Below, piece by piece: positions 17,476 through 37,126 of a stretch of 64,000 bases of DNA. Position 1 is the stretch's first letter. Each line of letters begins with the position of its first letter. The stretch is from positions 372,001-436,000 of the forward strand of contig NZ_LR797830.1 in NCBI RefSeq assembly GCF_903064525.1, written 5' to 3'. The position numbers were made by a program, and so were the translations under genes. The stretch is from Methylacidimicrobium sp. AP8 (GTDB lineage: Bacteria; Verrucomicrobiota; Verrucomicrobiia; Methylacidiphilales; Methylacidiphilaceae). Below the pieces are notes generated by a model, which was given only the letters and a program-made list of their open reading frames with translations, searched no databases and was not told where the DNA came from.

Positions 17476-18879
17476 CTACCGCGAAATGGCCTCGAGCGCC
17501 AAGCCGGGAGGGATGCTCCGGCAGCCTAATAGGAATAGACCCGAGAGAAGAGCCGGGAGAGCCCCGATCCAGAAGCTCGCCCAGACCCCGCTCATCCCCT
17601 GACCGAGGGCGAGGCTGAAGAGCGAGGAGCTGGCGATCGCCCCTAGGGGGCCGATGGCGTTGATCAGGGCTGTGGCGTTGCCTCGAACCCGGGTCGGGAA
17701 CGACTCGGCGATGTATGTGAAGAGGGCTGAATACGCTCCGGCCCTCAAGAAGTCGGCGATCGCATAGAGCGAGGCCACGGGCCAAAACCCCCGAGCGAAG
17801 AAGAGGAGCGCGGCGTAGGCGAGCGCCGAGGCGATCCAAGCAATCGCCACCGTCTCCCGCCGGCCGGCGAGGTCTCCTAAATATCCGTGGAAGACATAAC
17901 CGACGTAGGCGGCGGCACTTCCCGCCCCGAAGGCATAGAGCGCCTCGTTATAGGACAATCCCTTGGCTTGGGTGAAGACCGTGGTCGCCAATACCGTGAA
18001 GATCTGTCCCGCGAACCAGTTGAAGAAGAAGGCGCACACCAGGAACAGAAAGTGGAAGCGCAGATCCGGTCCCAGGAGTTGGATGAGAGAGATCTGCCGG
18101 GATTTTTCCGCATCGATGCCGTTGCGCTGCGCATAGCGGGCCGCCACCTCCGGGGCCCGATGGCGAAGGAGCCGGCGGAATCGCTGGAGCTTGCGGAAGT
18201 GGGGGCTCTCGGGGAGCCAGAGGCGGGCGAGCAAGACGGCGAGGGCGGGAAAGCTGGCGACGAAAAAAACTCCGCGCCAGCCAACCAGAGGAAGGAGCAG
18301 CCCCGTCGCCCCGGTGGCCAAGAGCTGGCCGATCGGCCAGCCTCCTTGCACGAAGCCGTAGATTCTGCCCCGTCTCCCTGCCGGTTCCAGCTCCGAAAGA
18401 TAGACCGTGTTGACCGCCTGTTCGGAATAGCCGAGGCCCGAGAGCGCTCGCGCGAAAATCAGGGAGAGGGGGCCGGCCGCCAGTGCTGTCAGGGCGGAGC
18501 TCAAGGCGGCTCCGCCGACCGTGATGACGAGCGCGTTGCGCCGGCCGAACCGGTCCGCGATCGGGCCGACCAGGAGCGAGCAGAGGAAGCTTGCGATGGC
18601 AACCCGGAACGCGATCGAGACACTTTGCGCGGGGGACCAGCCGAATTCCGTGGCCAGCACGGGCAAGAGCAGGCCGAAGAGCAAAAAATCATAGACCGCG
18701 AACGTCCATGCGAAGAAAGCGACCAGCGAGGGATAGAGGGAAGGAAATGCCTTCGGCGCGGGAAAGGAGGGGGAGGCCCGCTTCCAAACGCCCGCGTCCT
18801 CATCCCTCCGGCCATGGGCATCGCTTGCCGGAACGCCGGGGCGCCAGGCAAGCCCCTCTACCTGGTGATCCTCTTCCAT
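17476..18879 (-). CDS. Major facilitator superfamily carrier
   Basis: 467 residues with twelve predicted helices; the first begins near residue 50 (FAWTFAVYDFLLFGLLLP). The MFS motif between helices 2 and 3 reads GPIADRFGRRNALVI, and the second half repeats it as GYLGDLAGRRETVAI. The pattern resembles the sugar-acid/sialate or aromatic-acid symporter branches. It is the last gene of the reverse gene string that begins with xdhA and includes tonB-exbBD, so a ureide or purine-derived acid is a possible substrate, but this is context only. Confidence 0.85.
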   Translation of the reverse strand: MEEDHQVEGLAWRPGVPASDAHGRRDEDAGVWKRASPSFPAPKAFPSLYPSLVAFFAWTFAVYDFLLFGLLLPVLATEFGWSPAQSVSIAFRVAIASFLCSLLVGPIADRFGRRNALVITVGGAALSSALTALAAGPLSLIFARALSGLGYSEQAVNTVYLSELEPAGRRGRIYGFVQGGWPIGQLLATGATGLLLPLVGWRGVFFVASFPALAVLLARLWLPESPHFRKLQRFRRLLRHRAPEVAARYAQRNGIDAEKSRQISLIQLLGPDLRFHFLFLVCAFFFNWFAGQIFTVLATTVFTQAKGLSYNEALYAFGAGSAAAYVGYVFHGYLGDLAGRRETVAIAWIASALAYAALLFFARGFWPVASLYAIADFLRAGAYSALFTYIAESFPTRVRGNATALINAIGPLGAIASSSLFSLALGQGMSGVWASFWIGALPALLSGLFLLGCRSIPPGLALEAISR

Positions 18880-19415
18880 GTCCTATCCGGGGGGCTCGAG
18901 CGGAACGCCCTTTGGACTCGTGCCATCCCCGTTTTGACGGGTATAGGCTTCGGATCCTCGGCTTGCGGCGGGGCCGCATCGGGCGGCTCCACCGGAGCGG
19001 GAAACTGCCGCTCTTCGGGCAATCCCGCATCCGGATGCTCCTTGGGCTCTTCTTCCCCGTGGAGATCGGTGCTCGCTACCGGAAGGAGCAGAAGAAGGAG
19101 GGAGAGGGTCATCCCCGGGGCGGCAACGGGGAACCTCCGTCGCCGCACCGGCTGCCGATCCCGCGTTCTTCCGGATACTTGCAGAGCGGGCAGCCCGAAA
19201 ACGCGGAAGGGTGTATACAGGCCGGCGGGCCGGCCGAGGTGCATCTTTCGGCCCCAGCTCGACAACGGCGGTTCTCCGTAGGTTGCGGCGGCTTCGGTGG
19301 CCAACGGGAAGCTCGCCGGCTTGCGGCGGAAATGGCGGAAAAGGACAAGCGCGACGATCGCCGGATCCGGCGGCAGCCGGTCGATAGGAGCCGAAACCGT
19401 CTGTCGATCCCTCAT
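18858..19415 (-). CDS. Hypothetical protein, possibly exported
   Basis: 185 residues if read from the ATG that overlaps the exbB stop (ATGA). No family recognised. The second half begins with a signal-peptide-like segment (MTLSLLLLLLPVAST, in-frame ATG at 19112) followed by an acidic Pro/Glu-rich stretch; the first half is Arg/Pro-rich and low in complexity. Either the whole frame is a gene coupled to exbB, or only 19112-18858 is translated as an 84-residue exported peptide. It overlaps the start of the MFS gene by 22 nt. Coding status uncertain. Confidence 0.4.
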   Translation of the reverse strand: MRDRQTVSAPIDRLPPDPAIVALVLFRHFRRKPASFPLATEAAATYGEPPLSSWGRKMHLGRPAGLYTPFRVFGLPALQVSGRTRDRQPVRRRRFPVAAPGMTLSLLLLLLPVASTDLHGEEEPKEHPDAGLPEERQFPAPVEPPDAAPPQAEDPKPIPVKTGMARVQRAFRSSPPDRTWKRITR

Positions 19416-20086
19416 CGTTCCGGGGAGGCAGCTTCCGCATACCGGGCGGTCGGCGGTCCGAGGCGGATCTCCCGGCCGCGGCTTTGGAGGAGGAGCTCGA
19501 CGTTGGTCGCGGCGGTCTCGAGGTCGAACTGGAGATTGGCCAGCTTGCGGCCGAAGTAGTTATAGGGGATGAGCGCGAAGATCGCCAGCGCCAGGCCGGT
19601 GGCGGTGGCGATCAGGGCCTCTGCGATTCCTCCGCTGACCTTGACCGCCGCCAGCTCCTCATTCCCCACGAAGTGGAAGGCATTCATGATGCCGGTTACC
19701 GTTCCCAGAAGCCCCAGAAGGGGGCCGAGGGTGACGATTGTGTCCAAGACCGCGAGTCCCCGGCCGGCTTGCTTGAGCTCGAAGCCCGCAGCCACCTGGA
19801 GAGCGTTCTGCAACGAAGTCTCGTGATGGTTGAGCCCCCACCAGATCATCTTCATGACCGGATCCTTCGAGGCCCGCGCGAGCTTGGCCGCCTCCTCGAT
19901 CCGGCCGTTCTTGAGAAGGCTGTAGACCTCGGAAACCTTACTCTGCTGGCGGCGGAGCCGGATCATCGACCACCAGAAGATCCGTTCAAGCACGGTCACG
20001 ATCGCGACGATCGCGACCAAGAGCAGCGGCCACATGATCGGGCCTCCGCGGGAGAAGGTGTTGAGGACGATATTGGCGAGGATCAT
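19412..20086 (-). CDS. exbB: ExbB/TolQ/MotA-type proton channel
   Basis: 224 residues. Inner-membrane proton channel that, with ExbD, energises TonB. Three transmembrane segments (about residues 15-35, 110-135 and 160-180) and the family blocks KQAGRGLAVLDTIVTLGPLLGLLGTV and GGIAEALIATATGLALAIFALIPYNYF. ATG preceded by AGGAGA. It lies 44 nt after tonB and 100 kb-type stand-alone copies are not visible; in this operon the order is exbD-tonB-exbB, directly downstream of allantoinase. Confidence 0.92.
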   Translation of the reverse strand: MILANIVLNTFSRGGPIMWPLLLVAIVAIVTVLERIFWWSMIRLRRQQSKVSEVYSLLKNGRIEEAAKLARASKDPVMKMIWWGLNHHETSLQNALQVAAGFELKQAGRGLAVLDTIVTLGPLLGLLGTVTGIMNAFHFVGNEELAAVKVSGGIAEALIATATGLALAIFALIPYNYFGRKLANLQFDLETAATNVELLLQSRGREIRLGPPTARYAEAASPER

Positions 20087-20130
20087 CGATTCTCCTGGGT
20101 TGCGGTTGTCATCGAGAGGCCGTTCACCGG

Positions 20131-20868
20131 CTACTGGAGCCGGTAGATAATCGGGATCGTGTAGGTGCCGGAAAGGTTGGCGGGCAAGCGCCAGTGCTGT
20201 CGGATCCACTGACGGGCCGTCGAATCCAGAATGCCGAAGCCCGAGGATCGGACGACCTCCACATCCAGGAGCCTCCCTTGCTGGATCGTGAGCGAAAGCT
20301 CGACCGTACCCTGGTATCGCCGCATAGCGGCCTCGTAGGGGTAGGGGGGCTTGGGCGTGTTTGCGTCGCCTACCCGGGGAGCGGCGGCGGCGTAGCGCTG
20401 GATCGGATGCACCGGAGCGATCGGGGCGGGCTTCTTGGACACGCGCAAAGGTGTGGGCTTCGGCGGCTCCGGCTTGGGCTCGGGCGTCTTCTCCACCGGA
20501 GGAGGAATCGGAAGTGGCTGCTGCTTGGGTTGGATGAACTCGGGATTGGGCTCGGGAGGCGGGGGCGGAGTGAACTCGACTTCGATCGGGGGCGAGGTCG
20601 CTTCCTCTTGCGGAGGAGAAGCGACCGGAGTCACCGCCCCGCGGAGGAGCAGATCAACGATCGATTGATGCTTGTCGAGGGTGCCGACGGCCAGCAGCAA
20701 TCCGAAGAAGAAGAGCACGCAGAGGCAAGCCCAACGCTTGAGACGGAGGCCCTCGTCGATCGGATAAGGGATATGGCCGAGCGGGACGACCTCCCGGCAG
20801 GCGAGGCCGTGCCGGAGGATTCGATAGGGAAACGTTGAGGGATGGCGTGGTTCGGTTCGGGATGTCAT
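20131..20868 (-). CDS. tonB: TonB energy-transducing protein
   Basis: 245 residues. A single N-terminal membrane anchor (ACLCVLFFFGLLLAVG, about residues 46-61), a long Pro/Glu/Lys-rich periplasmic linker starting EFTPPPPPEPNP, and a C-terminal TonB domain with PYEAAMRRYQGTVELSLTI, VVRSSGFGILDSTARQWI and WRLP. It delivers proton-motive energy to TonB-dependent receptors. Start chosen at the ATG with GGAG upstream. Located between exbD and exbB in the purine gene string. Confidence 0.92.
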   Translation of the reverse strand: MTSRTEPRHPSTFPYRILRHGLACREVVPLGHIPYPIDEGLRLKRWACLCVLFFFGLLLAVGTLDKHQSIVDLLLRGAVTPVASPPQEEATSPPIEVEFTPPPPPEPNPEFIQPKQQPLPIPPPVEKTPEPKPEPPKPTPLRVSKKPAPIAPVHPIQRYAAAAPRVGDANTPKPPYPYEAAMRRYQGTVELSLTIQQGRLLDVEVVRSSGFGILDSTARQWIRQHWRLPANLSGTYTIPIIYRLQ

Positions 20869-20908: not shown

Positions 20909-21364
20909 TCATGGGTGGGTCGCCGGCGCCGGACCGGCGGAAGCCTTCGGGGCGGACGCTTCCTCCTTGACCTGGAAGCCGATCTTCTGAATTCCCGCCG
21001 CCCGGATCTTGTCGAGAACCCGCACGACATCCCCGTGCCTCGCGTCCATGTCGGCCTGGACGTAAATCCGCAGGTTGGGCTCCTTCTCCTTGCGGCGCTT
21101 GAGCTCCTCGATGAGCGCGCTCCGCTCGATCTCCTCCTTTTCCAGGAAGACCTCTCCGGTCGCGGTAATCGACACGGTGAGGAAGTCGGCTTTGTTTTCG
21201 GGGGTGGCGGTTTGCGCCGTGGGCAGGTTGAGCTTGAGGCCGCGCATCCGGATCATCTCCAGGTTCACCATCATCATGCAGGCCATGAGGAAGACCATGA
21301 TGTCGATGAGCGGGATGATCTCGATCCGACCCTTCTTCACCAGTACCGGGCTAAGAATTTTCAT
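20909..21364 (-). CDS. exbD: ExbD/TolR biopolymer transport protein
   Basis: 151 residues: short cytosolic N-terminus, one transmembrane helix with the conserved Asp in IIPLIDIMVFLMACMMM (about residues 17-33), and a periplasmic domain ending in GIQKIGFQV. The Asp is the proton-carrying residue of the ExbB/ExbD motor. Starts 53 nt after the allantoinase stop in the same direction, so the TonB motor appears to be co-transcribed with purine degradation genes. Confidence 0.9.
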   Translation of the reverse strand: MKILSPVLVKKGRIEIIPLIDIMVFLMACMMMVNLEMIRMRGLKLNLPTAQTATPENKADFLTVSITATGEVFLEKEEIERSALIEELKRRKEKEPNLRIYVQADMDARHGDVVRVLDKIRAAGIQKIGFQVKEEASAPKASAGPAPATHP

Positions 21365-21417
21365 GAGATCCGCTGGACGGAAAGCAGAGAGCGTGCCAAT
21401 CGGCGGCCCGGGAGGCC

Positions 21418-22782
21418 CTAACGGAGCCCGCAGGGGCCGGGCAGGAAGCGGCCGCGGGCGCGGACTGGATGACCGAGACAGGAGAAGGCGACCTCTCCTC
21501 GTACCAGGGTAAGCAGAGGGAAAACCCGATTCGGGAGTCCAACATAGGGGCTCAAGCGGTGACGATAGAGAAGACTCTTGGCCGCAATCGGCTCGGGTTC
21601 CCGCAGATCCACCAAGGTCAGGTCGGCGTGGTTGCCGACCGCGATGGCCCCCTTGTCCCGAATGCCGAAGCGATGGGCGCTGCCTAAGGCGCAGAGTCGG
21701 GCGGCGAGCGGGAAGGCTCGGTCTCCTTCGGCGGCCAGCCGGTCGAGGAGGAGCGGAAGAAGGTGCTGGCAGCCGGAGATCCCTCCCCAAGCGGCGAAGA
21801 AGTCGGTGGTCGCCTTAGCCGCCGGGGGGCAGGGCGAGTGGTCGGAGGCGAGCAGGTCGATCTCCCCGGCGAGAAGAGCCCGCCAGAGCCCTAGCGACTG
21901 CCGCCGGCTGCGGAGAGGGGGAGCGCACTTGGCGATCGTCCCCAGCCGCCTCATGTCCTCGTCGCAAAAGAGGAGGTAGTGGAGACAGGTTTCGACGGTG
22001 ACGTCGACTCCCTGGGCGCGCGCCGTTTGCGCAAGCTCGACGACTTCAGGAGCACTCACGTGGACAAGGTGGAGCGCACAACCGGTTTCCCCGGCGGCGT
22101 CTAGGGCTTCCCGGGCCGCCTCGACCTCCGCGGCCAGCGGCCGCGAGGCCAGATAGTCCCGCCAGCCGCCATCGCCGTGCGCCCGCCAGCGCCGGGTGAG
22201 CTCCGTCACGATTCGTTCCGATTCCGCGTGGACCGCGACCGGGAGATCGAAATCGGCCGCTTGTCGCATGCCTTCGCGGAGGGTACGGCCGTCGACCCAT
22301 CCGAACTCCGGAGTCCCGGTCGGGCAGAGAAAGGCCTTGAAGCCGACCGCCCCCTCCCGCGCCAATCCTTCCCGCTGCTTTTCATTTCCGGGGACGATGC
22401 CACCCCAGAGGGCGAAGTCGGTGACGGAGGCCGCTTCGGCCGCCCGCTTCTTTTGGAGAAGGCTTTCCACGTCGATCGTGGGCGGAAACGAGTTAAGCGG
22501 CATGTCAAAAAAAAGGGTGCCGCCGCCGGCGGCCAGCGCGCGGGAGCCCGTTGCGATGCCCTCCCATTCCTCCCGGCCGGGCTCGTCGAAATGGACATGC
22601 GGGTCGATCGCTCCCGGAAAGAGATAGCGTCCTTGGCCGTCGACCTCTTGACGGCCTCTCCCGTCGATCGTCGCGGCAACGGCCACGACCCGCCCTTCCC
22701 GGACGGCGAGGTCCTGCCGGGCTACGCCCTCGGCCGTCACGACGGCGGCTTGCCGAAAGACCCAGTCAAACTCTTCTCCCAT
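21418..22782 (-). CDS. allB: Allantoinase
   Basis: 454 residues. Zn-dependent cyclic amidohydrolase opening allantoin to allantoate. Motifs: DPHVHFDEPG (metal His pair), the carbamylated-Lys block VGFKAFLCPTGTPEF, HLVHVSAPEVV, ETCLHYLLF (ETCPHYL in most allantoinases, here Leu for Pro) and LASDHSPCPP. The S-D-H-S-P block and ETC.HYL favour allantoinase over dihydroorotase or hydantoinase. Nineteen nt downstream of the allantoate hydrolase gene. Confidence 0.9.
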   Translation of the reverse strand: MGEEFDWVFRQAAVVTAEGVARQDLAVREGRVVAVAATIDGRGRQEVDGQGRYLFPGAIDPHVHFDEPGREEWEGIATGSRALAAGGGTLFFDMPLNSFPPTIDVESLLQKKRAAEAASVTDFALWGGIVPGNEKQREGLAREGAVGFKAFLCPTGTPEFGWVDGRTLREGMRQAADFDLPVAVHAESERIVTELTRRWRAHGDGGWRDYLASRPLAAEVEAAREALDAAGETGCALHLVHVSAPEVVELAQTARAQGVDVTVETCLHYLLFCDEDMRRLGTIAKCAPPLRSRRQSLGLWRALLAGEIDLLASDHSPCPPAAKATTDFFAAWGGISGCQHLLPLLLDRLAAEGDRAFPLAARLCALGSAHRFGIRDKGAIAVGNHADLTLVDLREPEPIAAKSLLYRHRLSPYVGLPNRVFPLLTLVRGEVAFSCLGHPVRARGRFLPGPCGLR

Positions 22783-22801: not shown

Positions 22802-24055
22802 CTACGGAAGGAAACCCTCCAAGAATCCGACCATCGCTTCGAGCCCGCAGGCGATCTCGGGCACGGAGACAAACTCCGCCGGATCGTGGCTGATCCCGCC
22901 GCGGCAGCGGAGGAAGAGCATCCCCATCGGGACGAAGCGGCCGAGGACTCCCGCATCGTGGCCCGCCCCGCTCCAAAGACGCGGGGCTTCTCCCTGGATC
23001 TCCGCCACCGCCGAGGCGAGCCGGTCCTGCCAGCCCGCATCCGCCCGGGCGGCGGGCAGCCGCTGCGTGCGCCGGCAGCCGACCTCGATCCCCCGGCTCT
23101 TCCCGATCTCCCGCGCCCGCTCCCGGAGCCGGGCGGAAAGCCGATCTAACGTGGCTTCGGCGGGATGGCGCAGGTCGACCGAGAGATCGACCCGTTTCGG
23201 AATCACGTTGACGGCTCCCGGCTGGCAGTGGAGCTCGCCGACGGTGGCGACCGCGCCGGGCTCCCGCCGCGCCGACTCTTCGACGAAGCCGACGAACTCC
23301 GCCGCGGCACAGAGGGCATCGCGGCGCGCATGCATCGGAACGGAGCCGGCGTGGCCGCTCTCCCCCGCGAAGGAAACCAGCAGCCTCTCCTGCGCGACGA
23401 TGCCCGCGACGACCCCAAGCGGCAGGCCGAGGGCTTCGAGCTGCGGACCCTGCTCGATGTGCGCCTCGAGGTAGCCGAAGATTTCGGCGGGCGGATAGGG
23501 CGGGACCCGGGGCCACCCCTCCGTCGAAAACGAGTCGCGAGCCGTTCGGAGGGAGATGCCGCGGGTGTCGGCCAGCTCCCAATCCTCCTCGTCCAAGAGG
23601 CCGAGGAAGGCCCGGCTGCCCAGGCAGCCCGAGCGGAAGCGGACTCCTTCTTCCTCGTGGAATGCGACGACCTCGAGGGCGAAGGGGAGCTCCCGCGCCC
23701 GGGGCCGGAGGAGGCCGGCCGCCGCGATTCCCAACAGGATTCCGAGCGCCCCATCGAACCGGCCGCCGTTGGGAACCGTATCGAGGTGAGAGCCGATGAG
23801 CAGGACGGGTTGCCCGTTCTCCCGCGGGCGGCGGCGGCCGAGGAGGTTGCCGAAGGAATCGACCGCGGGAAGGAGCTCCGCCTCCACCATCCAGCGGGAG
23901 ATCTCCTCCATCGCGCGCCGGAGAGAGGGGGTGAAGGGGGGCCGATCCAACGCATCCTCCCGTTCCGAAATCCGGCTCAAGCGCTCGAGCCGCCGCTCGA
24001 TCCTCTCCGCCTCCGCCCGCCAGTCGATTCGCGTTTGCTTCAAGGGCGGCTCCAT
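22802..24055 (-). CDS. allC: Allantoate amidohydrolase (M20 family)
   Basis: 417 residues. M20/M28-type zinc hydrolase with GSHLDTVPNGGRFDGALG, the catalytic/metal FHEEEGVRFRSGCLGSRA, YLEAHIEQGPQLE, SGHAGSVPM, the GELHCQPGAVNVIP block and GHDAGVLG. This pattern is shared by allantoate amidohydrolases and N-carbamoyl-amino-acid hydrolases; position next to allantoinase points to allantoate to ureidoglycine, ammonia and CO2. ATG lies 16 nt inside the preceding puuD gene. A second M20 enzyme at 31512 probably handles ureidoglycolate. Confidence 0.87.
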   Translation of the reverse strand: MEPPLKQTRIDWRAEAERIERRLERLSRISEREDALDRPPFTPSLRRAMEEISRWMVEAELLPAVDSFGNLLGRRRPRENGQPVLLIGSHLDTVPNGGRFDGALGILLGIAAAGLLRPRARELPFALEVVAFHEEEGVRFRSGCLGSRAFLGLLDEEDWELADTRGISLRTARDSFSTEGWPRVPPYPPAEIFGYLEAHIEQGPQLEALGLPLGVVAGIVAQERLLVSFAGESGHAGSVPMHARRDALCAAAEFVGFVEESARREPGAVATVGELHCQPGAVNVIPKRVDLSVDLRHPAEATLDRLSARLRERAREIGKSRGIEVGCRRTQRLPAARADAGWQDRLASAVAEIQGEAPRLWSGAGHDAGVLGRFVPMGMLFLRCRGGISHDPAEFVSVPEIACGLEAMVGFLEGFLP

Positions 24056-25386
24056 TCCCCTGCTTTGGTTCTCTGTTCCTGCGCCCGGATCCACTGGCCG
24101 AGGATCGCGCGCTCCTCCTCGGTCATCCCGGTAAGATTGCCCGGCGGCATCGCCCGGGCCTCGACCGCCTGCTCCCGGACAGCCAAGAGCGCTCTCTCGA
24201 GTCCTCCCAGAGAGTCGAGGATCACTCCCGCCGGTGGGCTCGGCAGATGCGCGAGCGTGGGCGTTTCTGCGTGGCAGCCCGCGCAACGTCGACGAAGAAT
24301 CGCTTCGACCTCCGCGCCGGTCGCTGTCCGGGGAGGAGGAGTTGGCCGGAGCGGAGAAGCAACCGGCGCCGGCTGTGCGAAGAAGATCGCGGCGAGCAGG
24401 AGCCCTGCCCCGAAGCCGATCCAGGGCAGCCAGGATTTCCGCCTCTGGCGAAGATTGACCGCGTGGCGGACCGTTCCCCCGGCGAGCAGGAGGCAGAAGA
24501 GAACCAGCCAGTTCGCGCGGCCCAGGAAGACAAGTGGGAAATGGCCGCTCATCATCGTGAAGAGGACCGGAAAGGCCAGATAGTTGTTGTGGACAGAGCG
24601 GAGGTGCGTCCGCTCCACCTGCGCCGGGTCCAGCCGTTGGCCTCGCCGGGCGGCTTCCAGAAACCGCCGCTGGGAGGGGATGATCACAAGGAGGACATTG
24701 CTCGCCATGATGGTTCCCAGGACCGCCCCGAGATGGAGAAAGGCGCCTCGGCCGCTGTAGAGGTGCGTAAGCCCGAAGGAGAGAGCGGCGAGGAGCAGGC
24801 AGGAGAAAAGGGCGAAAAGCGGCGGGTGGTGGAGGAGGGGGGTCGCGCAGAGCCCGGAATAGACGAGCCAGCCTCCGGTCAGGATCGCCAAGCTCCAGAG
24901 AACGGCGCTTTCCGGAGAGAGGCGGGCGACCTGCGGGTCGATGAGCGTCGCCTCGGGATGGCTGTAGTAGGAGAACGCGAGCAAGGCGAAGCCCGTCAAC
25001 CAGGTCAGGTAGGCGTCCCAGCGGAACCAGTGGAGAGGTGCGGGAAGCGGATCGGGTGCCGTCCGGTATTTGTCGAGCCGGTAGACCCCTCCGCCGTGGA
25101 CCGTCCAGAGTCGGCCCGCGAGCTGGGATTCTGCCGGGAAACGTTCCAGGCTGTTCTCGACGAAGATGAAGTAGAATGAGGCCCCGATCCAGGCCAACCC
25201 GTAGATCAAGTGGGCCCAGCGGAGGAGAAGAGGAATCCAAAGCGAGAGGAGAGAAGAGCCGACCCCGGGCCGGGAGGCGAACGCGACGAGGGCGAGCAGA
25301 AAGGCTCCGCCGAGCCCGATTCCGAGGAGAAGATGAGTTCCGAGTGCAAATCTCCTTCGGGAAGGAAGAGGGGCCTGCGGTTCCAT
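24040..25386 (-). CDS. puuD: Membrane urate oxidase PuuD with C-terminal cytochrome c domain
   Basis: 448 residues. N-terminal integral-membrane urate oxidase domain (DUF989 type, about eight helices: LRWAHLIYGLAWIGASFYFIF, HGGGVYRLDKYR, HNNYLAFPVLFTMMSGH), then a Pro-rich linker and a C-terminal monohaem cytochrome c with CAGCH and a likely Met ligand in MPPGN. PuuD proteins convert urate to 5-hydroxyisourate and pass electrons to the respiratory chain instead of to O2 directly. Sits between guanine deaminase (9-nt gap) and allC (16-nt overlap). Confidence 0.93.
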   Translation of the reverse strand: MEPQAPLPSRRRFALGTHLLLGIGLGGAFLLALVAFASRPGVGSSLLSLWIPLLLRWAHLIYGLAWIGASFYFIFVENSLERFPAESQLAGRLWTVHGGGVYRLDKYRTAPDPLPAPLHWFRWDAYLTWLTGFALLAFSYYSHPEATLIDPQVARLSPESAVLWSLAILTGGWLVYSGLCATPLLHHPPLFALFSCLLLAALSFGLTHLYSGRGAFLHLGAVLGTIMASNVLLVIIPSQRRFLEAARRGQRLDPAQVERTHLRSVHNNYLAFPVLFTMMSGHFPLVFLGRANWLVLFCLLLAGGTVRHAVNLRQRRKSWLPWIGFGAGLLLAAIFFAQPAPVASPLRPTPPPRTATGAEVEAILRRRCAGCHAETPTLAHLPSPPAGVILDSLGGLERALLAVREQAVEARAMPPGNLTGMTEEERAILGQWIRAQEQRTKAGEWSRP

Positions 25387-25395
25387 CCGTTCTGT

Positions 25396-29127: not shown

Positions 29128-30500
29128 TGGAACTTCTCCAGGAGGTTTTGCGCCAGGGCGAGCCGGTAGGCGGCGCTTCCCCGGTGGTCGTCGATCGGGG
29201 AAAGGGATCCGGCCAGGGCTTCCCGGGCGCGCTCGACCGCTGGAAGCTCCCACGGCCGGCCCGCGAGCGCCTCCTCCGCCGCCGTGGAACGGAGCGGGCG
29301 GTCGGCGACGCCGCCGAAGGCCAAGCGGATCCGCGCGGCCCGGCGGTTCGCGTCGAGGTCAAGGGCGGCACCCAGGGAGACCGTGGCGATGTCGTCGCTC
29401 GGCCGCTTGGCGACCTTGTAGAAGCGGACGATCGCAGGGTAGGGCTTGGGAATCCGGACGGAGGCGATCAGCTCCCCGGGGCGGAGGGCCGTTTTCCGAT
29501 AGCCGTGGAAAAACGACGACAAGGGAAGCTCGCGGCTCCCTTCGGAGGAGAGGAGTCTGAGCCGGGCGTCTAGGGCGAGGAGGAGGGGAGCCGCATCTCC
29601 CACCGGGGAAGCGGTCGCCAGATTGCCCCCCAGGGTCGCCCGGTTCCGGATCAGCGGGGAGGCGAACAGGGGGAACCACTCCCGCAGTCCGGGCGGCGGA
29701 TTGGGGGTCTCCGCAAGCCGCTCCTCGACTTCGCGCAGCGAGAGGGCCGCTCCGATCTCGATCCCTTGGGGCCCTTCCCGGAAGCCGCGCAGCTCGGGGA
29801 TCCCCTCCAAGCTGACCAGGCAGGGAAAGCGCCGGAACCGGAGGTTGCGCTCGACCGAAAGGTCGGTCATCCCGGCCGCCCACTCCGCCTCCGGACGGCG
29901 GGCGGCGATCTCCCAGAGCCCTTCCAGCCGGGTCGGCCGCAGGAACGTCTCGGAGCCCGATTGCCAGGAGAGCGGAGCGAGCCGAGGCGCCGGTTGCGAA
30001 AGCCGGCGGAAGAGAGGATGCTCGGGGCCGAGCGGGGGAAGCCGGAGGGCCGCATCCCGGATCGGCCGATAACCGGTGCAGCGGCAGAGATTGCCCGAAA
30101 GCGCGTCGAGCGCGGCCGGGCCGCCTTTCCGGTCGCTCTGCTCGGCGAAGAGCGAGATCACGAAGCCGGGGGTGCAATAGCCGCATTGCGAGCCGCCCTC
30201 CTCCGCCAGCGCCTGCTGCGCGGGGCAGAGCCGCTCCCCTTGAGCGAGCGCTTCGACCGTGTAGATCTCCCGGTCGGCCGCGGCGGCCAGGGGGACCAGG
30301 CAGCTATTGATCGCGCGCAGCCGGGAACGGCCGCCCTCCTCCTCGAGCCAGAGGAGCGCGCAGGCGCCGCACTCCCCTTCGGCGCAGCCCTCCTTGGCTC
30401 CCGTCAAGCCGAGCGACCGGACATAGTCAAGGAGGGTCTCCCCCGGGTCGCTCGACGCGACCGTTCGCCGCATCCCGTTGACCGATAAGGCAAAGCTCAT
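29100..30500 (-). CDS. xdhA: Xanthine dehydrogenase, 2Fe-2S and FAD subunit
   Basis: 466 residues. N-terminal plant-type ferredoxin domain with CAEGECGACALL, then the second Fe-S domain QCGYCTPGF...NLCRCTGYRPI (about residues 105-150), followed by a CO-dehydrogenase-flavoprotein-like FAD domain with ATLGGNLATASPVGD and a C-terminal FAD domain with ATVSLGAAL. This fused small-plus-medium architecture is the XdhA type. First gene of the long reverse purine string; divergent from the ureidoglycine gene with a 202-bp gap that should hold its promoter. Confidence 0.94.
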   Translation of the reverse strand: MSFALSVNGMRRTVASSDPGETLLDYVRSLGLTGAKEGCAEGECGACALLWLEEEGGRSRLRAINSCLVPLAAAADREIYTVEALAQGERLCPAQQALAEEGGSQCGYCTPGFVISLFAEQSDRKGGPAALDALSGNLCRCTGYRPIRDAALRLPPLGPEHPLFRRLSQPAPRLAPLSWQSGSETFLRPTRLEGLWEIAARRPEAEWAAGMTDLSVERNLRFRRFPCLVSLEGIPELRGFREGPQGIEIGAALSLREVEERLAETPNPPPGLREWFPLFASPLIRNRATLGGNLATASPVGDAAPLLLALDARLRLLSSEGSRELPLSSFFHGYRKTALRPGELIASVRIPKPYPAIVRFYKVAKRPSDDIATVSLGAALDLDANRRAARIRLAFGGVADRPLRSTAAEEALAGRPWELPAVERAREALAGSLSPIDDHRGSAAYRLALAQNLLEKFHWQTRFLAP

Positions 30501-30702
30501 TCGATGCTATCGGCCCCTTTCTTTCCGGAAGCCGCCGCTGGTTCTTCTCTTCTGCTCGCTTAGACAAGCAGGAGGCGTGCCATCGGAGGAATGTACTCCA
30601 GATCTTTGGCATGCGAAAACGGGCAGTCGCCGGAAAACGATCCTGCGGCACGCGGGCGAACCGGCCTGGCGGCACGAAAGCTGCTATTGGTTAGCCCGAG
30701 AC

Positions 30703-31515
30703 GTGAGGGCGGGGACCGTCAGGAAAGAATTCATTGCGGGGAGGCCATCGCCCCCCGGCAGCACGCGGACCGTGCTCGGCCTGCGGCACGCGCTGCTCGA
30801 CCCGGTCGGCCACGTTCGCGGCGGAGTGCCGGGCTTTGCGCCCGAGGCCGCCGTCGTGCTGATTTCCCCCCGGCTGGGGGCGGGCTTCGTCCAATTCCTG
30901 GTCGACCTCCGGCCGGGCGAGGCGGGCGGATCGGGTCTTCCCGGCGTCGAGGGCTTCCTCTACCTGCTCGCGGGAGAAGCCGCGGCGGAGCTGGGGGGAC
31001 AACCGGTTCTGCTCGCCGCCGGCGACTTCTTCTTTACCCCGCCGGGCATGGCCTGGCGCCTGCGGGCAGGCGCATGCGGCGCCCGTGCCGTCGTCTTCGA
31101 GAAGCCCTATGCCCGCCGGCCGGGCATCTCGGAACCGCCGCTTCTCGTCGGGCGGACCGGGGAGGTGGCGGGTCTGCCGTTCCTCGGCGATCCGGACGCG
31201 CTCCTCCGGACCTTCCTGCCCGAGGACCCCTCCTTCGATATGGCGGTGAACCTCTTCGAGTTCCGTCCGGGCGCCTCCCTCCCCTTCGTCGAGGCGCACG
31301 TGATGGAGCACGGGCTGCTCATGCTCGAAGGACGGGGGATCTACCGCCTCGAGGATGCGTGGTATCCGGTCGCGGCCGGGGATGCGATCTGGATGGCCCC
31401 CTACTGCCCGCAGTGGTTCGCGGCCCTCGGTCCGACCCCGGCGCGCTATCTTTATTATAAGGATGTGGGTCGCCATCCCCTGGAGGACGGCCGCGGGGAA
31501 GGGAAGATCGCGTGA
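30703..31515 (+). CDS. allE: (S)-ureidoglycine aminohydrolase
   Basis: 270 residues, a bicupin Mn-dependent enzyme turning ureidoglycine into ureidoglycolate plus ammonia. Blocks shared with E. coli YlbA/AllE and plant UGlyAH: the front segment with ALLDPVGHVRGGVPGF, LGAGFVQFLVDL, GVEGFLYLLAGEAAAELGG, FDMAVNLFEFRPGASLPFVE, HVMEHGLLMLEGRGIYRLED and the C-terminal YLYYKDVGRHPL. The frame is open further upstream to 30478, but the family core needs only about 25 residues before STRTVLGL, so the GTG at 30703 is chosen; no clear SD, so the start is tentative. Coupled to the next gene by GTGA. Confidence 0.87.
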   Translation: MRAGTVRKEFIAGRPSPPGSTRTVLGLRHALLDPVGHVRGGVPGFAPEAAVVLISPRLGAGFVQFLVDLRPGEAGGSGLPGVEGFLYLLAGEAAAELGGQPVLLAAGDFFFTPPGMAWRLRAGACGARAVVFEKPYARRPGISEPPLLVGRTGEVAGLPFLGDPDALLRTFLPEDPSFDMAVNLFEFRPGASLPFVEAHVMEHGLLMLEGRGIYRLEDAWYPVAAGDAIWMAPYCPQWFAALGPTPARYLYYKDVGRHPLEDGRGEGKIA

Positions 31516-32756
31516 GTCCTCTCCCTCTCCCGATTCGCTGCGATCGGGTCGAGGCGGAGCTCGCCGAGCTGGCGACCTTCTCCGACCCCCCGTTCCCAGG
31601 GGTCACCCGCGTGCTCTTCTCCGCCCCGGATCTGGCTGCCCGCCGGTGGCTCCAGGGACGCTTCCGCGCTGCGGGGCTCGAGGTCCGGGCGGATGCGGTC
31701 GGCAACCTCTTTGCCCGCTGGCTCGGCGAGGACCCCGGCCCGCTGGCCGTGGCGACCGGCTCCCACATCGACGCCGTCCCCCATTCGGGCCGCTATGACG
31801 GCACGGTCGGCGTCCTGGGGGCTCTTGAGGCTTTCCGTGCGCTGCGGGAGTCGGGATTCCGGCCGAAGCGCTCCCTCGAAATCGTCGTCTTCTCCGCCGA
31901 AGAGCCGACCCGCTTCGGGGTCAGCTGCCTGGGCAGCCGGGCGCTGGCGGGGCGGATTGGCCCCGAGGAGCTCGCGGCGCTGCGGGATGAAGCGGGGAGG
32001 AGCTTTGCCGAGCTGCGCGAGGCCGCGGGCCTAGGTCACCTCCCTCTCGCCGAACTCGCTCCCCCCCGCTACGCCGCCTTCGTCGAGCTCCACATCGAGC
32101 AGGGTCCGCTCCTCGAGCGGGAGGGAGCGGCGATCGGGGCCGTCGAGGCGATCGCGGCGCCGGCCGCCTACCGGATCCGTTGGCTCGGGGAAGCCGGCCA
32201 TGCGGGTACGCTGCTCCTGGCCGATCGGCGGGATGCCCTGGCGGGGGCAGCCGAGGGAATCCTGGCGGTCGAGCGCGCCGCTCGGGAGTCGGGATCCGCC
32301 GACACCGTCGCCACGGTGGGGCAGATCGCCGTGAGCCCGGGGGCTCTCAACTCGGTTGCGGGCTTCGCCTCCCTCGGCCTCGACCTGCGGGACATCAATC
32401 CGGAGCGGCGGGAGCGGGTGGCGAGCGCGATCCGGGAGGCGTTCGTGGAGATCGCCGGGCGCAGGCGCCTGGAGCTTTCCTGGGAGAGGATCTATGAGGA
32501 TCCGCCGGCCGCCTGCGATCCGGGGCTGGTGGCGCAGATCCTGGCAAGCGCCGATCGGCTCGGCCTGCGCGCCCGCAGAATGATCAGCCGGGCCTATCAC
32601 GACTCCCTTTTCCTGGCCAGGCTCTGTCCGACCGCGATGATCTTTATCCCCTGCCGCGCAGGGAAGAGCCATTGCCCGGAAGAGCACGCCTCGCCCGCGG
32701 CGATCGAAGCCGGGGTGCGCGTGCTTGCCGACTGCCTCCGGGCGCTGGCGGGTTAG
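31512..32756 (+). CDS. M20 amidohydrolase, probable ureidoglycolate amidohydrolase
   Basis: 414 residues. M20 zinc hydrolase with GSHIDAVPHSGRYDGTVGVL, SAEEPTRFGVSCLGSRAL, FVELHIEQGPLLE, AGHAGTLLL, TVGQIAVSPGALNSV and the YHDSLFLARL block. The IDAxPHSGxYDGxVGVLGA version of the metal loop is that of plant and bacterial ureidoglycolate amidohydrolase (UAH) rather than allantoate hydrolase, and the gene is coupled to ureidoglycine aminohydrolase, the preceding step. Products would be glyoxylate, CO2 and ammonia. Convergent with the NCS1 permease, stops overlapping by 4 nt. Confidence 0.83.
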   Translation: MSPLPLPIRCDRVEAELAELATFSDPPFPGVTRVLFSAPDLAARRWLQGRFRAAGLEVRADAVGNLFARWLGEDPGPLAVATGSHIDAVPHSGRYDGTVGVLGALEAFRALRESGFRPKRSLEIVVFSAEEPTRFGVSCLGSRALAGRIGPEELAALRDEAGRSFAELREAAGLGHLPLAELAPPRYAAFVELHIEQGPLLEREGAAIGAVEAIAAPAAYRIRWLGEAGHAGTLLLADRRDALAGAAEGILAVERAARESGSADTVATVGQIAVSPGALNSVAGFASLGLDLRDINPERRERVASAIREAFVEIAGRRRLELSWERIYEDPPAACDPGLVAQILASADRLGLRARRMISRAYHDSLFLARLCPTAMIFIPCRAGKSHCPEEHASPAAIEAGVRVLADCLRALAG

Positions 32757-34117
32757 CCGGCGGCCTCCGACCTCTCCCGCCGCGTGAGGCTCACGTAGAG
32801 CAGCGCCGAGACGGCGCTTCCTACCGGAAACGCCAGATCGCCCCATTCCGGATGCGTGGCCGCCAGGGCTCCGAGGACCCAAGGCTCTTGGCGGATCCAG
32901 GGGAGGGAGGCGAGCACACCGCCCAGCCAACAGAGGAAGCCGATCGAGCCCGTGTCGAGCCTCGCGAGGCGGGAAACCCGCGGTCCAAGGTGAGCGATCA
33001 CCAGGATCGGGAGGCGCGGGAAGATCAGGTAGGCGAGCAGGAAGAGGAGACCTTCGTAGCGCTGGTAGAATTCCCGGCGGCCGAGGAGAGCCACCGCTAA
33101 GCCGGCGACGCCGACCAGGAGCGAGGCCTGGTATCGGGGGAGGCCGAATCCCGCGCCCAAAAGGGAGAGGCCGGCCGAGTAGAGATTGAGCATGTTGGCG
33201 CTGATCGTTCCGATCACGATGGCTCCCGCGAGCAGGAGGTGGAGGGAGCCCGGCAGCAAGGGGAAGAGCAGATCGGTCGGGTTTTCCGAGCGGATCGTTC
33301 CCCCCAGGAAGGCGCCGAGGATTTCGATCCAGGTGGTCGAGAGAAAGGCGCCCCAGAACGTGTGCCGGAAGACCTGCCGTTCGAGCGAAGCGGCCTCGCG
33401 CTCGTAGCGGAGATAGCGGGAGTAGTCGGGGGCGAAGAGCATCCACCCTCCTAGGTAGGAAAGAGCGAGGCTTCCGGCGAGGAGCCATCCTCCGGGGACC
33501 GTCCCCCCGAGTGCCGCCTTCGGCGGCGGCGCAGCGCCGACCGGGAGCGGCAGCAGCGAAAGGGCCGAGACCACCGAAAAGAGGAAGACTAAGACCAGGA
33601 AGCAGACATCCCCCGCCCGGAGGATCAGCTTATGGCCGGCCGCGGCCAGCAGGATCTGGACGGCGGCCAGCAGAAAGATCGCCGGAGCGGGAGGGATCGA
33701 GACGACATGCTCGAGGGCGTAGGCCGCGACCACCGTGTTGACGGCAAACCAGGAGACGCCGTTCAAGAAGTTGATCCCGGAGAGCACACGGTTTCCCCAG
33801 CGGCCGAACCACGGCGCGCAGAGCGCCATCATCGGAAGGCCGTAGCGGACGCCGTAGGTGGAAAAGAGGCCGAGGAGAAGAGAGCCCAGGCAGTTGGCGG
33901 CCGCAAGGGCCAGCGCGGCCTTCCAGAGGGGGAGGCCGAGGAGAGAGGTGGCGATCGCTCCCGTGCCCAAGGTGGCGAGGTTGACGTTGGCGGCCATCCA
34001 GAGGCGGAAGAGGCTTTCGGGCTGGCCGTGGGCTTCTTGCGGGCAGACCTGCTCGATTCCCTTGGCCTCGAATAAGAAGCGGCAGGACCGGACGGGATCC
34101 GCCAGCGTCTTCTTCAT
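32753..34117 (-). CDS. NCS1-family nucleobase/allantoin permease
   Basis: 454 residues, twelve predicted helices. NCS1 marks: FRLWMAANVNLATLGTG after a short N-terminus (substrate-helix Trp/Asn region), GLPMMALCAPWFGRWGN, FLNGVSWFAVNT, GGWMLFAPDYSRYLR and TISANMLNLYSAGLSLL. Family substrates are purines, cytosine, uracil, allantoin and hydantoins, carried by Na+ or H+ symport. Its ATG overlaps the 5-hydroxyisourate hydrolase stop (ATGA), so it follows the TonB receptor and UraH in one operon; a purine, urate or allantoin substrate is the natural inference. Confidence 0.9.
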   Translation of the reverse strand: MKKTLADPVRSCRFLFEAKGIEQVCPQEAHGQPESLFRLWMAANVNLATLGTGAIATSLLGLPLWKAALALAAANCLGSLLLGLFSTYGVRYGLPMMALCAPWFGRWGNRVLSGINFLNGVSWFAVNTVVAAYALEHVVSIPPAPAIFLLAAVQILLAAAGHKLILRAGDVCFLVLVFLFSVVSALSLLPLPVGAAPPPKAALGGTVPGGWLLAGSLALSYLGGWMLFAPDYSRYLRYEREAASLERQVFRHTFWGAFLSTTWIEILGAFLGGTIRSENPTDLLFPLLPGSLHLLLAGAIVIGTISANMLNLYSAGLSLLGAGFGLPRYQASLLVGVAGLAVALLGRREFYQRYEGLLFLLAYLIFPRLPILVIAHLGPRVSRLARLDTGSIGFLCWLGGVLASLPWIRQEPWVLGALAATHPEWGDLAFPVGSAVSALLYVSLTRRERSEAAG

Positions 34118-34461
34118 CGGCCCCTGTAGGTTGTGTAGCTCCATGGGGTCACCAGGAGCGGCAGGTGGTAGGGGGTCGCTTCCCCGCTCATGCCGAAGCG
34201 GATCACGATCTCCTCGAGGAATGGCGGATCGTCCTGGCGCACTCCGGCCCGGGCGAAGTAACTGCCGATCGCAAAGAGAAGCTCGTAGCGGCCGGCGGGG
34301 AGATCCGGCCGGCCGGAAGAGGCGCAAGCCGCCCTTCCGTCGGCGTCGGTGCGGCCTTCGAAGAGGATCTCCTTCGATTCGGGCCGGCAGAGGCGCAAGA
34401 GCACGCCCTGGGCGGGCTTCCCATGGAAAAGATCGAGCACATGCGTGGTCAATCGGCTCAT
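34114..34461 (-). CDS. uraH: 5-hydroxyisourate hydrolase (transthyretin-like)
   Basis: 115 residues, the usual size for HIUase, which hydrolyses the PuuD product to OHCU. N-terminal SRLTTHVLDLFHGKPAQGV contains the catalytic His; GRTDADGR and the FEEIVIRF-like FLEEIVIRFG block, then HLPLLVTPWSYTTYRGR at the C-terminus. The canonical C-terminal YRGS tetrapeptide is YRGR here: the catalytic Arg is kept but the final Ser is changed. Located 15 nt after the TonB receptor gene and overlapping the permease start. Confidence 0.92.
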   Translation of the reverse strand: MSRLTTHVLDLFHGKPAQGVLLRLCRPESKEILFEGRTDADGRAACASSGRPDLPAGRYELLFAIGSYFARAGVRQDDPPFLEEIVIRFGMSGEATPYHLPLLVTPWSYTTYRGR

Positions 34462-34476: not shown

Positions 34477-37074
34477 TTAGAATTTATAAGCGACCGTACC
34501 CTGCACCCAGAACGGCAAGCCGGCCACGATCTGCTCGGTGTTGAACTCTCGGCCGAAGGTTACCCCCGGCCCGTAGGGAAACCAGAGATGCCGGTTGTCG
34601 GTCAGGTTGTAGATGTTCACCGCGAAATCCCATCGGGGTGTGGTGTAGTAGAGGCGGGCGTTAATCACATATTCGGTGGGGATCTCGAGGTTGTACGAAT
34701 AGTCGAGATACTGGTTGCTCAGGACGAGCGCCGAGAGGGTCGCGCCCAGGCCCCCGTCGGTCTGGTAGGTGACCATGGCGCTCAAGGTCTGGTCGGGCCA
34801 CCCGACGAAGGCGTACTTTCCGGGCGGATAGTTGGCGGCGTTGTTGAGCGGAAGCCCCTGGGCGAGGGCCGTAGAGGTCGAATAGGTCTGAAACTGGAAG
34901 GGGCCGACGGGCATTCCCGACCAGTTCTCCGTGCCGTTGGCGAGCATGTATTGGACCCGCGCCCAGAAGTTCTTGCTCGGCTGATACGTGAGCGCTAGCT
35001 CGAACCCCTTGATGTAGGAAGGGGTGGGAGGCATCCCCATGTTGGCGATGTAGAAATCCTGGCTGAAGCCTGCGGTCGTCATGTAGAGCTTGTCGGCCAG
35101 CAGGCTGAACTTGAGCCCTCCTTCGATGAGCTGGTTGACGAGCCGGAACTCCGCCCCATCGTAGAAGGGAGTATAGCCTCCCATCACCCCCACCGCACTC
35201 GTATAGCCCCAGTTGTAGTCGAAATAGACGGTCATCCAAGGGAAGGGCTTGTAGACCGGGCTCACGTTGACCATCGGCATGAGCACGGCCGCGTCGTAGC
35301 CCATCGAGAGGAAGGCCGGGGTGCCGGGAGGGGTTTGCGCCGTGAGGAAGAGAGTGGTCGCCCGGGCGCCGACCAGGAGGGTCAGCTGATCGGTGAAGTG
35401 GATGTTGTGCTGGTAGAAGGGGGCTACCTCCCAGAACTGCGAATCCTCGGTGAGCGAATAGCCGTTTAGGGGCTCGAAGTACCACCCGGGGGGAGCCGAC
35501 GGGATCGGCCAGTCACCGCCGCCGAAGGCGAGGGGGTTTCCGATCCCGGCCGCAAAGGAGCTCGAGAGCTCGGCGTTCCAGAGGTAGGGATTGGCAAGGG
35601 CGGGATTGTTCGGGTTGGCGATGCTCCAGGCGTTCTGGATGCCGAAGAAGGAGACCCCCTCGTAGTCGAGGTTGCGTTGGAAGCCGAGCTCGACTCCGGC
35701 GTCGATATGCTGCTCAAAGAGCGCCTCTTCCGGGTGGAGGGCGGCCAGAACTTCCGTCCGGTTGAAGACCTCGTAGTCGCCCGTGATGTCGATGTCCTCC
35801 CACTGGGCATAGTCGATGAGCGAGCTGCGGATGTAGAAGGCGAAGGTGTTGTTCCGGATCCGCAGGTCGTCGTCGATCACCGCGTTCTGGACCAGCTGGA
35901 GCATGCCGCTCATCCCCAGTGCGCCCGAGGCCGGGTTCATCGCGGTCGACCGGAGGCTGATCGGCACGAGCGGCCCCGCGTAGGTGTTGAAGTTGGGAAA
36001 GCCGAAAGTGACTTGCGCGGGCGGCAGAGCACCGGTCTGGTAGAGGTCGTTATCGATGAGCTGATTGGTCGGCCGGTTCAGGAAGTCCAGAATGTTGAAG
36101 TTGTAGGTGCCGAAGTCGGAGTAGAAGTCGACCGAGTAGTTGTCGGTGGGACGGGCGCTCAGCGCTAAATAGAAGTTCTGCTGGTCGTTGTACTGATACT
36201 GGTAGTAGCTGCCGTTCTCCATTCCCATGTAGCTGAAGCGGTAGGCGAGCTTCTTCTCCTTACCGATCGGCCCGCCGATATCGGCCCCCCAAAGGTAGTT
36301 CTGGTACATGCCGGTCGTGTCCCAGACATAGCCCCGGAACCGGTCGAAGTAGGGCTGCTTGGTGATGTAGTTGACGGCACCCCCGTTGGCCTGCAGCTCG
36401 CCATAGACCGCGTTGGGCGGCCCCTCGATCACGTCCATCGACTCGACCATGTTGTAGTTCCAGGGAAGGTTCCACCAGCCGGCGTCCTGCATCGTCATCT
36501 GCATCCCGTTGATGAAACCCAGAGGCGGCATGCCGCGGATCATCGGAGCGAAGACGAGGTTGTTCCCGGCGGCGGCCGTCGAGCCGGGCGAGAGGAAGGC
36601 GGTGCTCACCGCGTCGAAGAATCCCTGGGTACCGGCCCCTTCGGTCTGCAGGATCGTTTTGTTGACCGGAAAGATCTGGCGCGGGGTGTCGAGGACGTTC
36701 ATCGGCTCCCCGTAGGCCCCCGATTCGATCGGGGTGGCCGTCGGCAGCATCGATTCTCCGGGAGCCGTCGTCGTCACCTCCATGGCGGAGAGGGAGCCGC
36801 TCTTCCCGGCCTTCGGCGAGCCGGCCGGTGCCGAAACGGGCACCGGCGGGTCGGCCGGGACGGCAACCGGATCGCCGGGAAGGGCGCCTGCCGGAGGATC
36901 GGAGTCGGGAGAGGCAGGTTCCGGAGCGCTCCCTGGGGCAGCGAGAAGCGCCTCCGGAGCGATCAGCCAGAGGAGCAAGGGGAGCAGGTGCGTACCCGCC
37001 GGAGGCAGTGTTGCCGCGGCGGGCCCGAGATCTTCCGCCGGAATGCCCGGTTGGGCCTGCTTTTTCCGTCCCAT
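34477..37074 (-). CDS. TonB-dependent outer membrane receptor, predicted purine/ureide uptake
   Basis: About 865 residues. An N-terminal hydrophobic export signal (HLLPLLLWLIAPEALLA) is followed by a Pro/Ala-rich stretch, then a plug domain (VLDTPRQIFPVNKTIL, MVESMDVIEGPPNAVYGE, GGAVNYITK) and a 22-strand-type beta barrel rich in aromatic residues that ends in ...TVAYKF with the terminal Phe of outer membrane barrels. The plug resembles FhuA/FcuA-like siderophore receptors, but it heads an operon with uraH and an NCS1 permease and the window has its own tonB-exbBD among purine genes, so a purine or ureide ligand is inferred. Start: ATG at 37074 (no good SD); TTG at 37107 is possible. Confidence 0.88.
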   Translation of the reverse strand: MGRKKQAQPGIPAEDLGPAAATLPPAGTHLLPLLLWLIAPEALLAAPGSAPEPASPDSDPPAGALPGDPVAVPADPPVPVSAPAGSPKAGKSGSLSAMEVTTTAPGESMLPTATPIESGAYGEPMNVLDTPRQIFPVNKTILQTEGAGTQGFFDAVSTAFLSPGSTAAAGNNLVFAPMIRGMPPLGFINGMQMTMQDAGWWNLPWNYNMVESMDVIEGPPNAVYGELQANGGAVNYITKQPYFDRFRGYVWDTTGMYQNYLWGADIGGPIGKEKKLAYRFSYMGMENGSYYQYQYNDQQNFYLALSARPTDNYSVDFYSDFGTYNFNILDFLNRPTNQLIDNDLYQTGALPPAQVTFGFPNFNTYAGPLVPISLRSTAMNPASGALGMSGMLQLVQNAVIDDDLRIRNNTFAFYIRSSLIDYAQWEDIDITGDYEVFNRTEVLAALHPEEALFEQHIDAGVELGFQRNLDYEGVSFFGIQNAWSIANPNNPALANPYLWNAELSSSFAAGIGNPLAFGGGDWPIPSAPPGWYFEPLNGYSLTEDSQFWEVAPFYQHNIHFTDQLTLLVGARATTLFLTAQTPPGTPAFLSMGYDAAVLMPMVNVSPVYKPFPWMTVYFDYNWGYTSAVGVMGGYTPFYDGAEFRLVNQLIEGGLKFSLLADKLYMTTAGFSQDFYIANMGMPPTPSYIKGFELALTYQPSKNFWARVQYMLANGTENWSGMPVGPFQFQTYSTSTALAQGLPLNNAANYPPGKYAFVGWPDQTLSAMVTYQTDGGLGATLSALVLSNQYLDYSYNLEIPTEYVINARLYYTTPRWDFAVNIYNLTDNRHLWFPYGPGVTFGREFNTEQIVAGLPFWVQGTVAYKF

Positions 37075-37126
37075 TCCGAAGGGCACGTTAAGCAGTTCGC
37101 ATGCCAAGCAGTGGCTTTTTCCGGCG

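Follow-up and report, generated by a model that had tools for sequence, protein, structure and literature searches.

A candidate purine uptake system: a TonB-dependent receptor and TonB-ExbB-ExbD genes within the purine-degradation locus of a verrucomicrobial methanotroph

The window (the whole 64-kb stretch of DNA analysed) comprises bases 372001-436000 of the 2.30-Mb single-contig genome of a verrucomicrobial methanotroph (Methylacidiphilaceae), with a G+C content of about 67%. We observed that a minus-strand gene string runs xdhA, xdhB, xdhC, guaD, puuD, allC, allB, exbD, tonB, exbB and an MFS carrier, while a second minus-strand unit contains a TonB-dependent receptor (TBDR), uraH and an NCS1 permease. 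Between these two units, on the plus strand, lie the genes for ureidoglycine aminohydrolase and a second M20 enzyme (Table 1). The initial annotation had placed exbD, tonB and exbB after allantoinase in a reverse string with the purine genes, with gaps mostly below 55 nt or overlaps. The gene identities and order held when examined with Pfam and NCBIfam models, and so did the gaps (allB-exbD 53 nt, exbD-tonB 40 nt, tonB-exbB 44 nt). As a correction to the single string, exbD-tonB-exbB has a promoter-like site of its own within the 53-nt gap. The TBDR was indeed found 15 nt before uraH, and the NCS1 gene begins within or right at the end of uraH, as had been described. Two boundaries were also corrected. 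The locus, which had been ended at 37107, reaches rightward to about 42.4 kb and takes in adenine deaminase, a Rieske oxygenase and a nucleoside hydrolase. The receptor had also been started at 37107; this TTG coincides with a sigma-54-like promoter, and the start is therefore probably the ATG at 37074.

Table 1. Positions of the genes and promoter-like sites of the locus, in window coordinates
Feature	Position	Strand	Basis
TBDR, TonB-dependent outer-membrane receptor	34477..37074	-	fold; family ortholog; clade support 100/100; heads TBDR-uraH-NCS1
uraH, 5-hydroxyisourate hydrolase	34114..34461	-	recognised by reading the sequence only; C-terminal YRGR
NCS1-family nucleobase permease	32753..34144	-	PF02133 above cut-off; TIGR00800 below cut-off
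exbD	20909..21364	-	ExbD PF02472
tonB	20131..20868	-	TonB_C PF03544; counterpart in 6/6 purine genomes
exbB	19412..20086	-	MotA_ExbB PF01618; 84-89% ortholog in the 6 purine genomes only
MFS transporter, candidate inner-membrane carrier	17476..18879	-	PF07690; adjoins exbB in relatives too
allB, allantoinase	21418..22782	-	TIGR03178 above cut-off
allC-like M20 amidohydrolase	22802..24055	-	PF01546
puuD, membrane urate oxidase	24040..25386	-	Urate_ox_N PF06181, 350 bits; CAGCH
guaD, guanine-deaminase-type zinc deaminase	25396..25917	-	PF00383
xdhC (start approximate)	25914..26760	-	PF13478
xdhB, molybdenum-binding subunit	26740..29127	-	PF02738, PF20256, PF01315
xdhA, FeS/FAD subunit	29100..30500	-	PF00941, PF01799, PF03450
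ylbA, (S)-ureidoglycine aminohydrolase	30577..31515	+	cupin; approximate start, probably past 30686
second M20 amidohydrolase, probably ureidoglycolate amidohydrolase	31512..32756	+	PF01546; TIGR01879 above cut-off
ade, adenine deaminase	38439..40322	+	PF13382, PF01979
Rieske oxygenase, VanA_C type	40274..41239	-	PF00355, PF19112; PDB matches
inosine-uridine-type nucleoside hydrolase, N-terminal signal sequence MDRFLFFPGLPLLLLISWLFPC	41293..42414	-	PF01156
sigma-54-like promoter TGGCATGCGAACTGCTT of TBDR	37090..37106	-	pattern match
sigma-54-like promoter TGGCACGCTCTCTGCTT of exbD-tonB-exbB	21382..21398	-	inside the allB-exbD gap
sigma-54-like promoter TGGCACGCCTCCTGCTT of xdhA operon	30566..30582	-	pattern match
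weaker sigma-54-like site CGGCACGAAAGCTGCT of ylbA	30670..30686	+	weaker pattern match
sigma-54-like promoter TGGCATGTATGTTGCTT of ade	38170..38186	+	pattern match
sigma-54-like promoter TGGCACGCGAGCTGCTT of Rieske gene	41252..41268	-	pattern match

The encoded pathway, as inferred from sequence alone, covers the route from purine bases to glyoxylate and ammonia. The urate oxidase has both features of the PuuD type, a cytochrome c haem motif (CAGCH at 368) and a membrane domain; its closest match in a species-level genome collection was a Candidatus Methylacidiphilaceae MAG (83%). The ylbA product matched the solved ureidoglycine aminohydrolase 4e2q (E 6e-47), and the closest solved relatives of the Rieske oxygenase were SxtT/SxtDIOX and the methylxanthine demethylases NdmA/NdmB. 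No OHCU decarboxylase (UraD) was recognised among the ORFs of the locus, the only part of the genome scanned for it.

We evaluated the receptor by sequence models and by structure prediction. It scored 21.5 bits against Pfam Plug, just under the cut-off of 23.9, and 57.4 bits against the NCBIfam siderophore-receptor model TIGR01783, whose cut-off of 223.5 was not met. An AlphaFold2 model (m5eb03b4b1809, built from 31 homologs; pLDDT 63, pTM 0.67) matched structures of TonB-dependent transporters with E-values down to 8e-26, and by its predicted plug-and-barrel fold the protein belongs to this transporter class. The confidence of the model was too low for a binding pocket to be named. The closest solved sequences and folds were mostly siderophore receptors, the sequence relation being weak and mainly over the plug. 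The host genome has about ten paralogs of this receptor. In a tree of 31 family receptors, those from purine loci formed a single clade (support 100/100), and 29 residues were specific to it.

We compared 13 genomes of the family, including Methylacidiphilum infernorum V4 (G009). Urate oxidase was present in six. Orthologs of the TBDR (81-93% identical) and of exbB (84-89%) were found in exactly these six, the window's own copies counting as 100%. The seven genomes without urate oxidase, all estimated to be 99% complete, had only paralogs of the two. As the receptor, the TonB system and the enzymes are physically linked, this co-occurrence represents few independent events. The gene order of the locus, including uraH after the TBDR, was kept in five relatives spanning two genera (in G004 and G005 on short contigs or fragments). 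With such conservation in five relatives, one of them from another genus, the arrangement is not due to chance. In G002, about 4.8 kb lie between allB and exbD, and exbD retains its own promoter-like site. In M. infernorum the locus is rearranged and sits at another chromosomal place, beside what appear to be purB and purQ (judged by eye). In this genome the TBDR is present twice, before uraH-NCS1 and again before xdhB; the two copies have a DNA identity of 90.5% and a dN/dS of 0.14. Few proteins of the locus are as well conserved between the genera as the receptor, with 84% identity against 53-75% for the enzymes. M. infernorum also has an extra ExbD-like frame right after exbB (L137, 9235-9564), whose window counterpart is an unnamed, weakly conserved ORF (18858-19415).

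The sigma-54 (-24/-12) pattern TGGCAYNNNNNYTGCTT matched five times in the window, against 0.01 matches expected from dinucleotide shuffles, and all five strict matches were upstream of units of the locus (exbD, xdhA, TBDR, ade and the Rieske gene). The pattern was written after viewing the TBDR-ade and xdhA-ylbA intergenic sequences and was prompted by the sites in them. Independent of that origin are the sites of exbD and the Rieske gene, and the agreement with the textbook -24/-12 consensus. No strict match occurred in the 110 kb that surround six other TBDR loci of the host genome. As far as the available sequence of the relatives reaches, the TBDR site was kept in G002, G003, G005 and both M. 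infernorum copies (one copy with a change), and the exbD site in G002, G003 and M. infernorum. The xdhA site was kept in G002 and G003, with one change in M. infernorum, and the ade site in G002, G005 and M. infernorum, with one change in G003. The Rieske site had counterparts in G002, G003, G005 and M. infernorum. The sites have been kept in M. infernorum although its G+C content is 45.5% (PMC2474590), against about 67% in the window. From the predicted transcription start to the receptor's ATG, the distance is 6 nt in the window and 18-20 nt in the other four of five genomes. For an NtrC-type enhancer, no match to the NtrC consensus was better than those in shuffled sequence.

Genes for nitrogen limitation typically have sigma-54 promoters, and nif genes are present in verrucomicrobial methanotrophs (PMC8498564). 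The promoter sites thus probably point to control of the locus by nitrogen rather than by iron, an inference made without expression data. Sigma-54-like sites were also seen upstream of another Methylacidiphilum TBDR clade that has no recognised purine neighbours (L218 8477, L219 9314, L114 1171), so that purine receptors are not alone in having such control. The member of this clade in the window's genome adjoins sufS-sufU-like genes. Another TonB_C domain of the host genome also has a sigma-54-like site, some 470 nt upstream (L006 2142-2158, in the region of genome position 803527).

We also searched 241 Verrucomicrobiota genomes with the window TBDR (E <= 1e-60). Outside the Methylacidiphilaceae, matches came from seven genomes, all belonging to a single further family of the class, coded f12, which we take to be, as a guess, the Opitutaceae. 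These seven loci were retrieved without regard to their neighbours, and all seven receptors were found to sit in purine loci. The receptor directly follows ade on the same strand in five, and in the sixth ade is 5.6 kb away; the ade of these six loci is 58-61% identical to that of the window. The seventh (L211) has two Xan_ur permeases, a Rieske gene 37% identical to that of the window and, adjoining the TBDR, a PF06516 gene (purine nucleoside permease). Sigma-54-like sites occur just before the receptor in four of the loci and before the ade-TBDR pair in a fifth. In all, the f12 loci hold seven such sites against 0.5 expected. No homolog of the window's xanthine dehydrogenase genes was found within about 10 kb in any of the seven.

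A receptor directly after puuD was also seen in a Caulobacteraceae MAG (L084), whose locus includes AMP nucleosidase and adenosine deaminase. Within the set compared, this receptor was the best match of all seven f12 receptors. A crude screen (large ORFs ending in an aromatic residue, together with a search with two TBDR sequences) of 79 puuD loci from other phyla, some of them on short contigs, recognised a TBDR nearby only in L084. Fourteen further Caulobacterales loci had no relative of the two TBDR queries, although TBDRs of other types may have been missed, and the L084 receptor (P0009) had no other match at E 1e-60 in 120 Caulobacterales genomes or in 398 genomes of its phylum. The f12 receptors were as near or nearer to non-purine paralogs than to the window's purine clade. 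Direct orthology of the L084 or f12 receptors with this clade was considered and is not supported, since their distance to it is no smaller than that to its paralogs. The purine linkage, which is shown for two other families, is thus claimed for the wider receptor family and not as strict orthology. It could be ancestral to the whole receptor family, or it could have been regained.

Together, the best reading is that of a sigma-54-controlled TonB system importing purines for nitrogen, which we consider likely (probability about 0.72). Under nitrogen limitation, sigma-54 RNA polymerase would transcribe the five or six units together. At the cell surface the TBDR would bind its purine, be it a free base, a nucleoside or urate, and a dedicated ExbB-ExbD-TonB complex would couple the proton-motive force to its passage through the receptor into the periplasm. 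Transfer over the inner membrane would then fall to the NCS1 permease and probably also to the MFS carrier. Adenine deaminase, guanine deaminase and xanthine dehydrogenase would convert the bases to urate, and PuuD, UraH, AllB, AllC, ureidoglycine aminohydrolase and the second M20 enzyme would free the nitrogen as ammonia. The ligand, the direction of transport and the regulation are inferred. That this TonB serves this receptor is inferred also, no interaction having been shown; the tonB, exbB and exbD genes lie in the locus of the TBDR and have the same promoter type.

The initial annotation had proposed energised uptake of purines across the outer and then the inner membrane by a candidate new transport system. 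Both parts are supported, with ligand binding and transport remaining unshown. It had named urate or allantoin as likely ligands, and this we modify. Of all the neighbours, adenine deaminase is conserved best, which makes purine bases or nucleosides more plausible than urate or allantoin alone; we place free bases first and nucleosides second, with urate or allantoin as the sole ligand less likely. It had also suggested a check of synteny with the purine and tonB-exbBD genes in relatives. Every family genome with the locus passed this check. In the wider receptor family, purine genes neighbour the receptor in the seven f12 genomes and the one Caulobacteraceae MAG. A firm place in a siderophore clade, iron-regulated expression and the absence of purine synteny would have refuted the proposal. 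On sequence evidence alone this condition is not fulfilled, as the receptors form their own 100/100 clade and are preceded by sigma-54-like sites, which point to nitrogen rather than to iron.

Several points weigh against the main reading. Its support lacks ligand, expression or mutant data, and ordinary porins could pass molecules as small as purines. Xanthine dehydrogenase requires molybdenum and iron, TBDRs are known chiefly for metal chelates, and the host has its ten or so TBDR paralogs, of the kind read in the M. infernorum genome paper as organometallic importers. The chief rival is that the TBDR imports not a purine but a metal chelate (iron or molybdenum) for xanthine dehydrogenase and the other metalloenzymes of the pathway. 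In its favour are the weak, mainly plug-based sequence relation to siderophore receptors, which are also nearest in fold, and the non-purine TBDR of the same family beside sufS-sufU-like genes, with the sigma-54-like sites of its clade in Methylacidiphilum. However, the partners of the receptor in the f12 loci are adenine deaminase and purine permeases, with no xanthine dehydrogenase homolog of the window type nearby (0/7 within about 10 kb). The window TBDR also shares its unit with uraH and a nucleobase permease, and none of the window genes examined was recognised as serving siderophore or metallophore biosynthesis. We regard the chelate explanation as unlikely.

A variant of the main reading, which remains possible, is that the TBDR imports purine nucleosides or larger pieces of nucleic acid, from which a periplasmic nucleoside hydrolase frees the base. 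The signal sequence of the window hydrolase, the PF06516 gene of L211 and the AMP nucleosidase and adenosine deaminase of the Caulobacteraceae locus would fit with this. However, the hydrolase adjoins the locus in some relatives only, being absent beside it in G003 and M. infernorum, and the commonest neighbour, adenine deaminase, works on the free base. It could also be argued that the TBDR and TonB genes are mere passengers, unrelated to purines, on a mobile degradation locus, since all the parts are physically linked and the locus lies at different chromosomal places in two genera. We consider this very unlikely. The TBDR is better conserved between genera than the enzymes, M. infernorum has retained two copies under purifying selection, both transport units share their promoter type with the enzymes, and related receptors occur in purine loci made of other genes.

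Known substrates of TonB-dependent transport are iron chelates, B12, haem, some sugars, nickel and PQQ. Among the closest known systems is PqqU (YncD), a TBDR for a small N-heterocycle other than a metal chelate (PMC12124388), whose structures 9c4o and 6v81 are among the fold matches of the window model. PqqU is evidence that import of a small N-heterocycle is possible for a TonB-dependent transporter. It differs in taking up a redox cofactor (pyrroloquinoline quinone) in trace amounts, and it is not known to be linked to a TonB-ExbBD or a catabolic operon. Siderophore receptors (FoxA, FetA/FptA type, PiuA, FhuA) share the plug-and-barrel fold and the weak plug relation, whereas the window TBDR falls far below their model cut-off and sits in a purine operon with sigma-54-like promoters. 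The PuuD-type clusters for aerobic purine breakdown in other phyla have the same core enzymes and the cytochrome c membrane urate oxidase (Doniselli 2015, PMC4562309), and differ in that a TBDR was recognised nearby in only one of 79. SuxA, MalA and SusC-type TBDRs, like that of the window, adjoin a permease and catabolic enzymes for their own substrate. They import sugars or oligosaccharides, unlike the proposed purine TBDR. To our knowledge, no purine substrate has been established for a TBDR linked to catabolic genes.

No TonB-dependent uptake of urate, xanthine, allantoin or purines was described in the open-access literature searched (subscription papers were mostly outside its scope). 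The M. infernorum genome paper, which reports at least 19 TonB receptor paralogs (PMC2474590), did not mention urate, xanthine, allantoin or adenine deaminase in the terms searched. What is new is thus likely to be a purine substrate class, with the ligand inferred, for a known kind of transporter, together with an unusual dedicated energy complex, probably nitrogen-controlled. By a narrow margin we also favour a bolder reading, in which a purine TBDR family across the Verrucomicrobiota and at least one alphaproteobacterium forms the outer-membrane step of nitrogen-regulated purine use, its methanotroph members coming with a dedicated sigma-54-controlled TonB-ExbB-ExbD. Other paralogs of the receptor family might import further nitrogen heterocycles. 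If the main reading is true, verrucomicrobial methanotrophs would be able to use organic nitrogen in addition to ammonium, nitrate and N2, and would have a new route of nitrogen capture in acid, nutrient-poor geothermal habitats. It would also suggest candidate functions for an expanded set of receptors that have until now been taken for organometallic importers. The hypothesis is directly testable in the cultured strain M. infernorum V4.

We observed some further features of the window around these genes. The TBDR-ade intergenic region contains a 175-bp direct repeat (92% identical, about 37405-37580 and 38270-38445). As the TBDR-ade spacing is only about 60-150 nt in relatives, the window has an insertion between the two genes. 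On the left, a gene for a Kup-type K+ transporter adjoins the locus (15488-17839, minus strand). On the right lies a second molybdenum-hydroxylase cluster (43071-49693, minus strand) with a MobA-like gene, a small FeS subunit, pieces of the large subunit and an XdhC-like gene, which looks interrupted by a transposase-like ORF (44967-46679).
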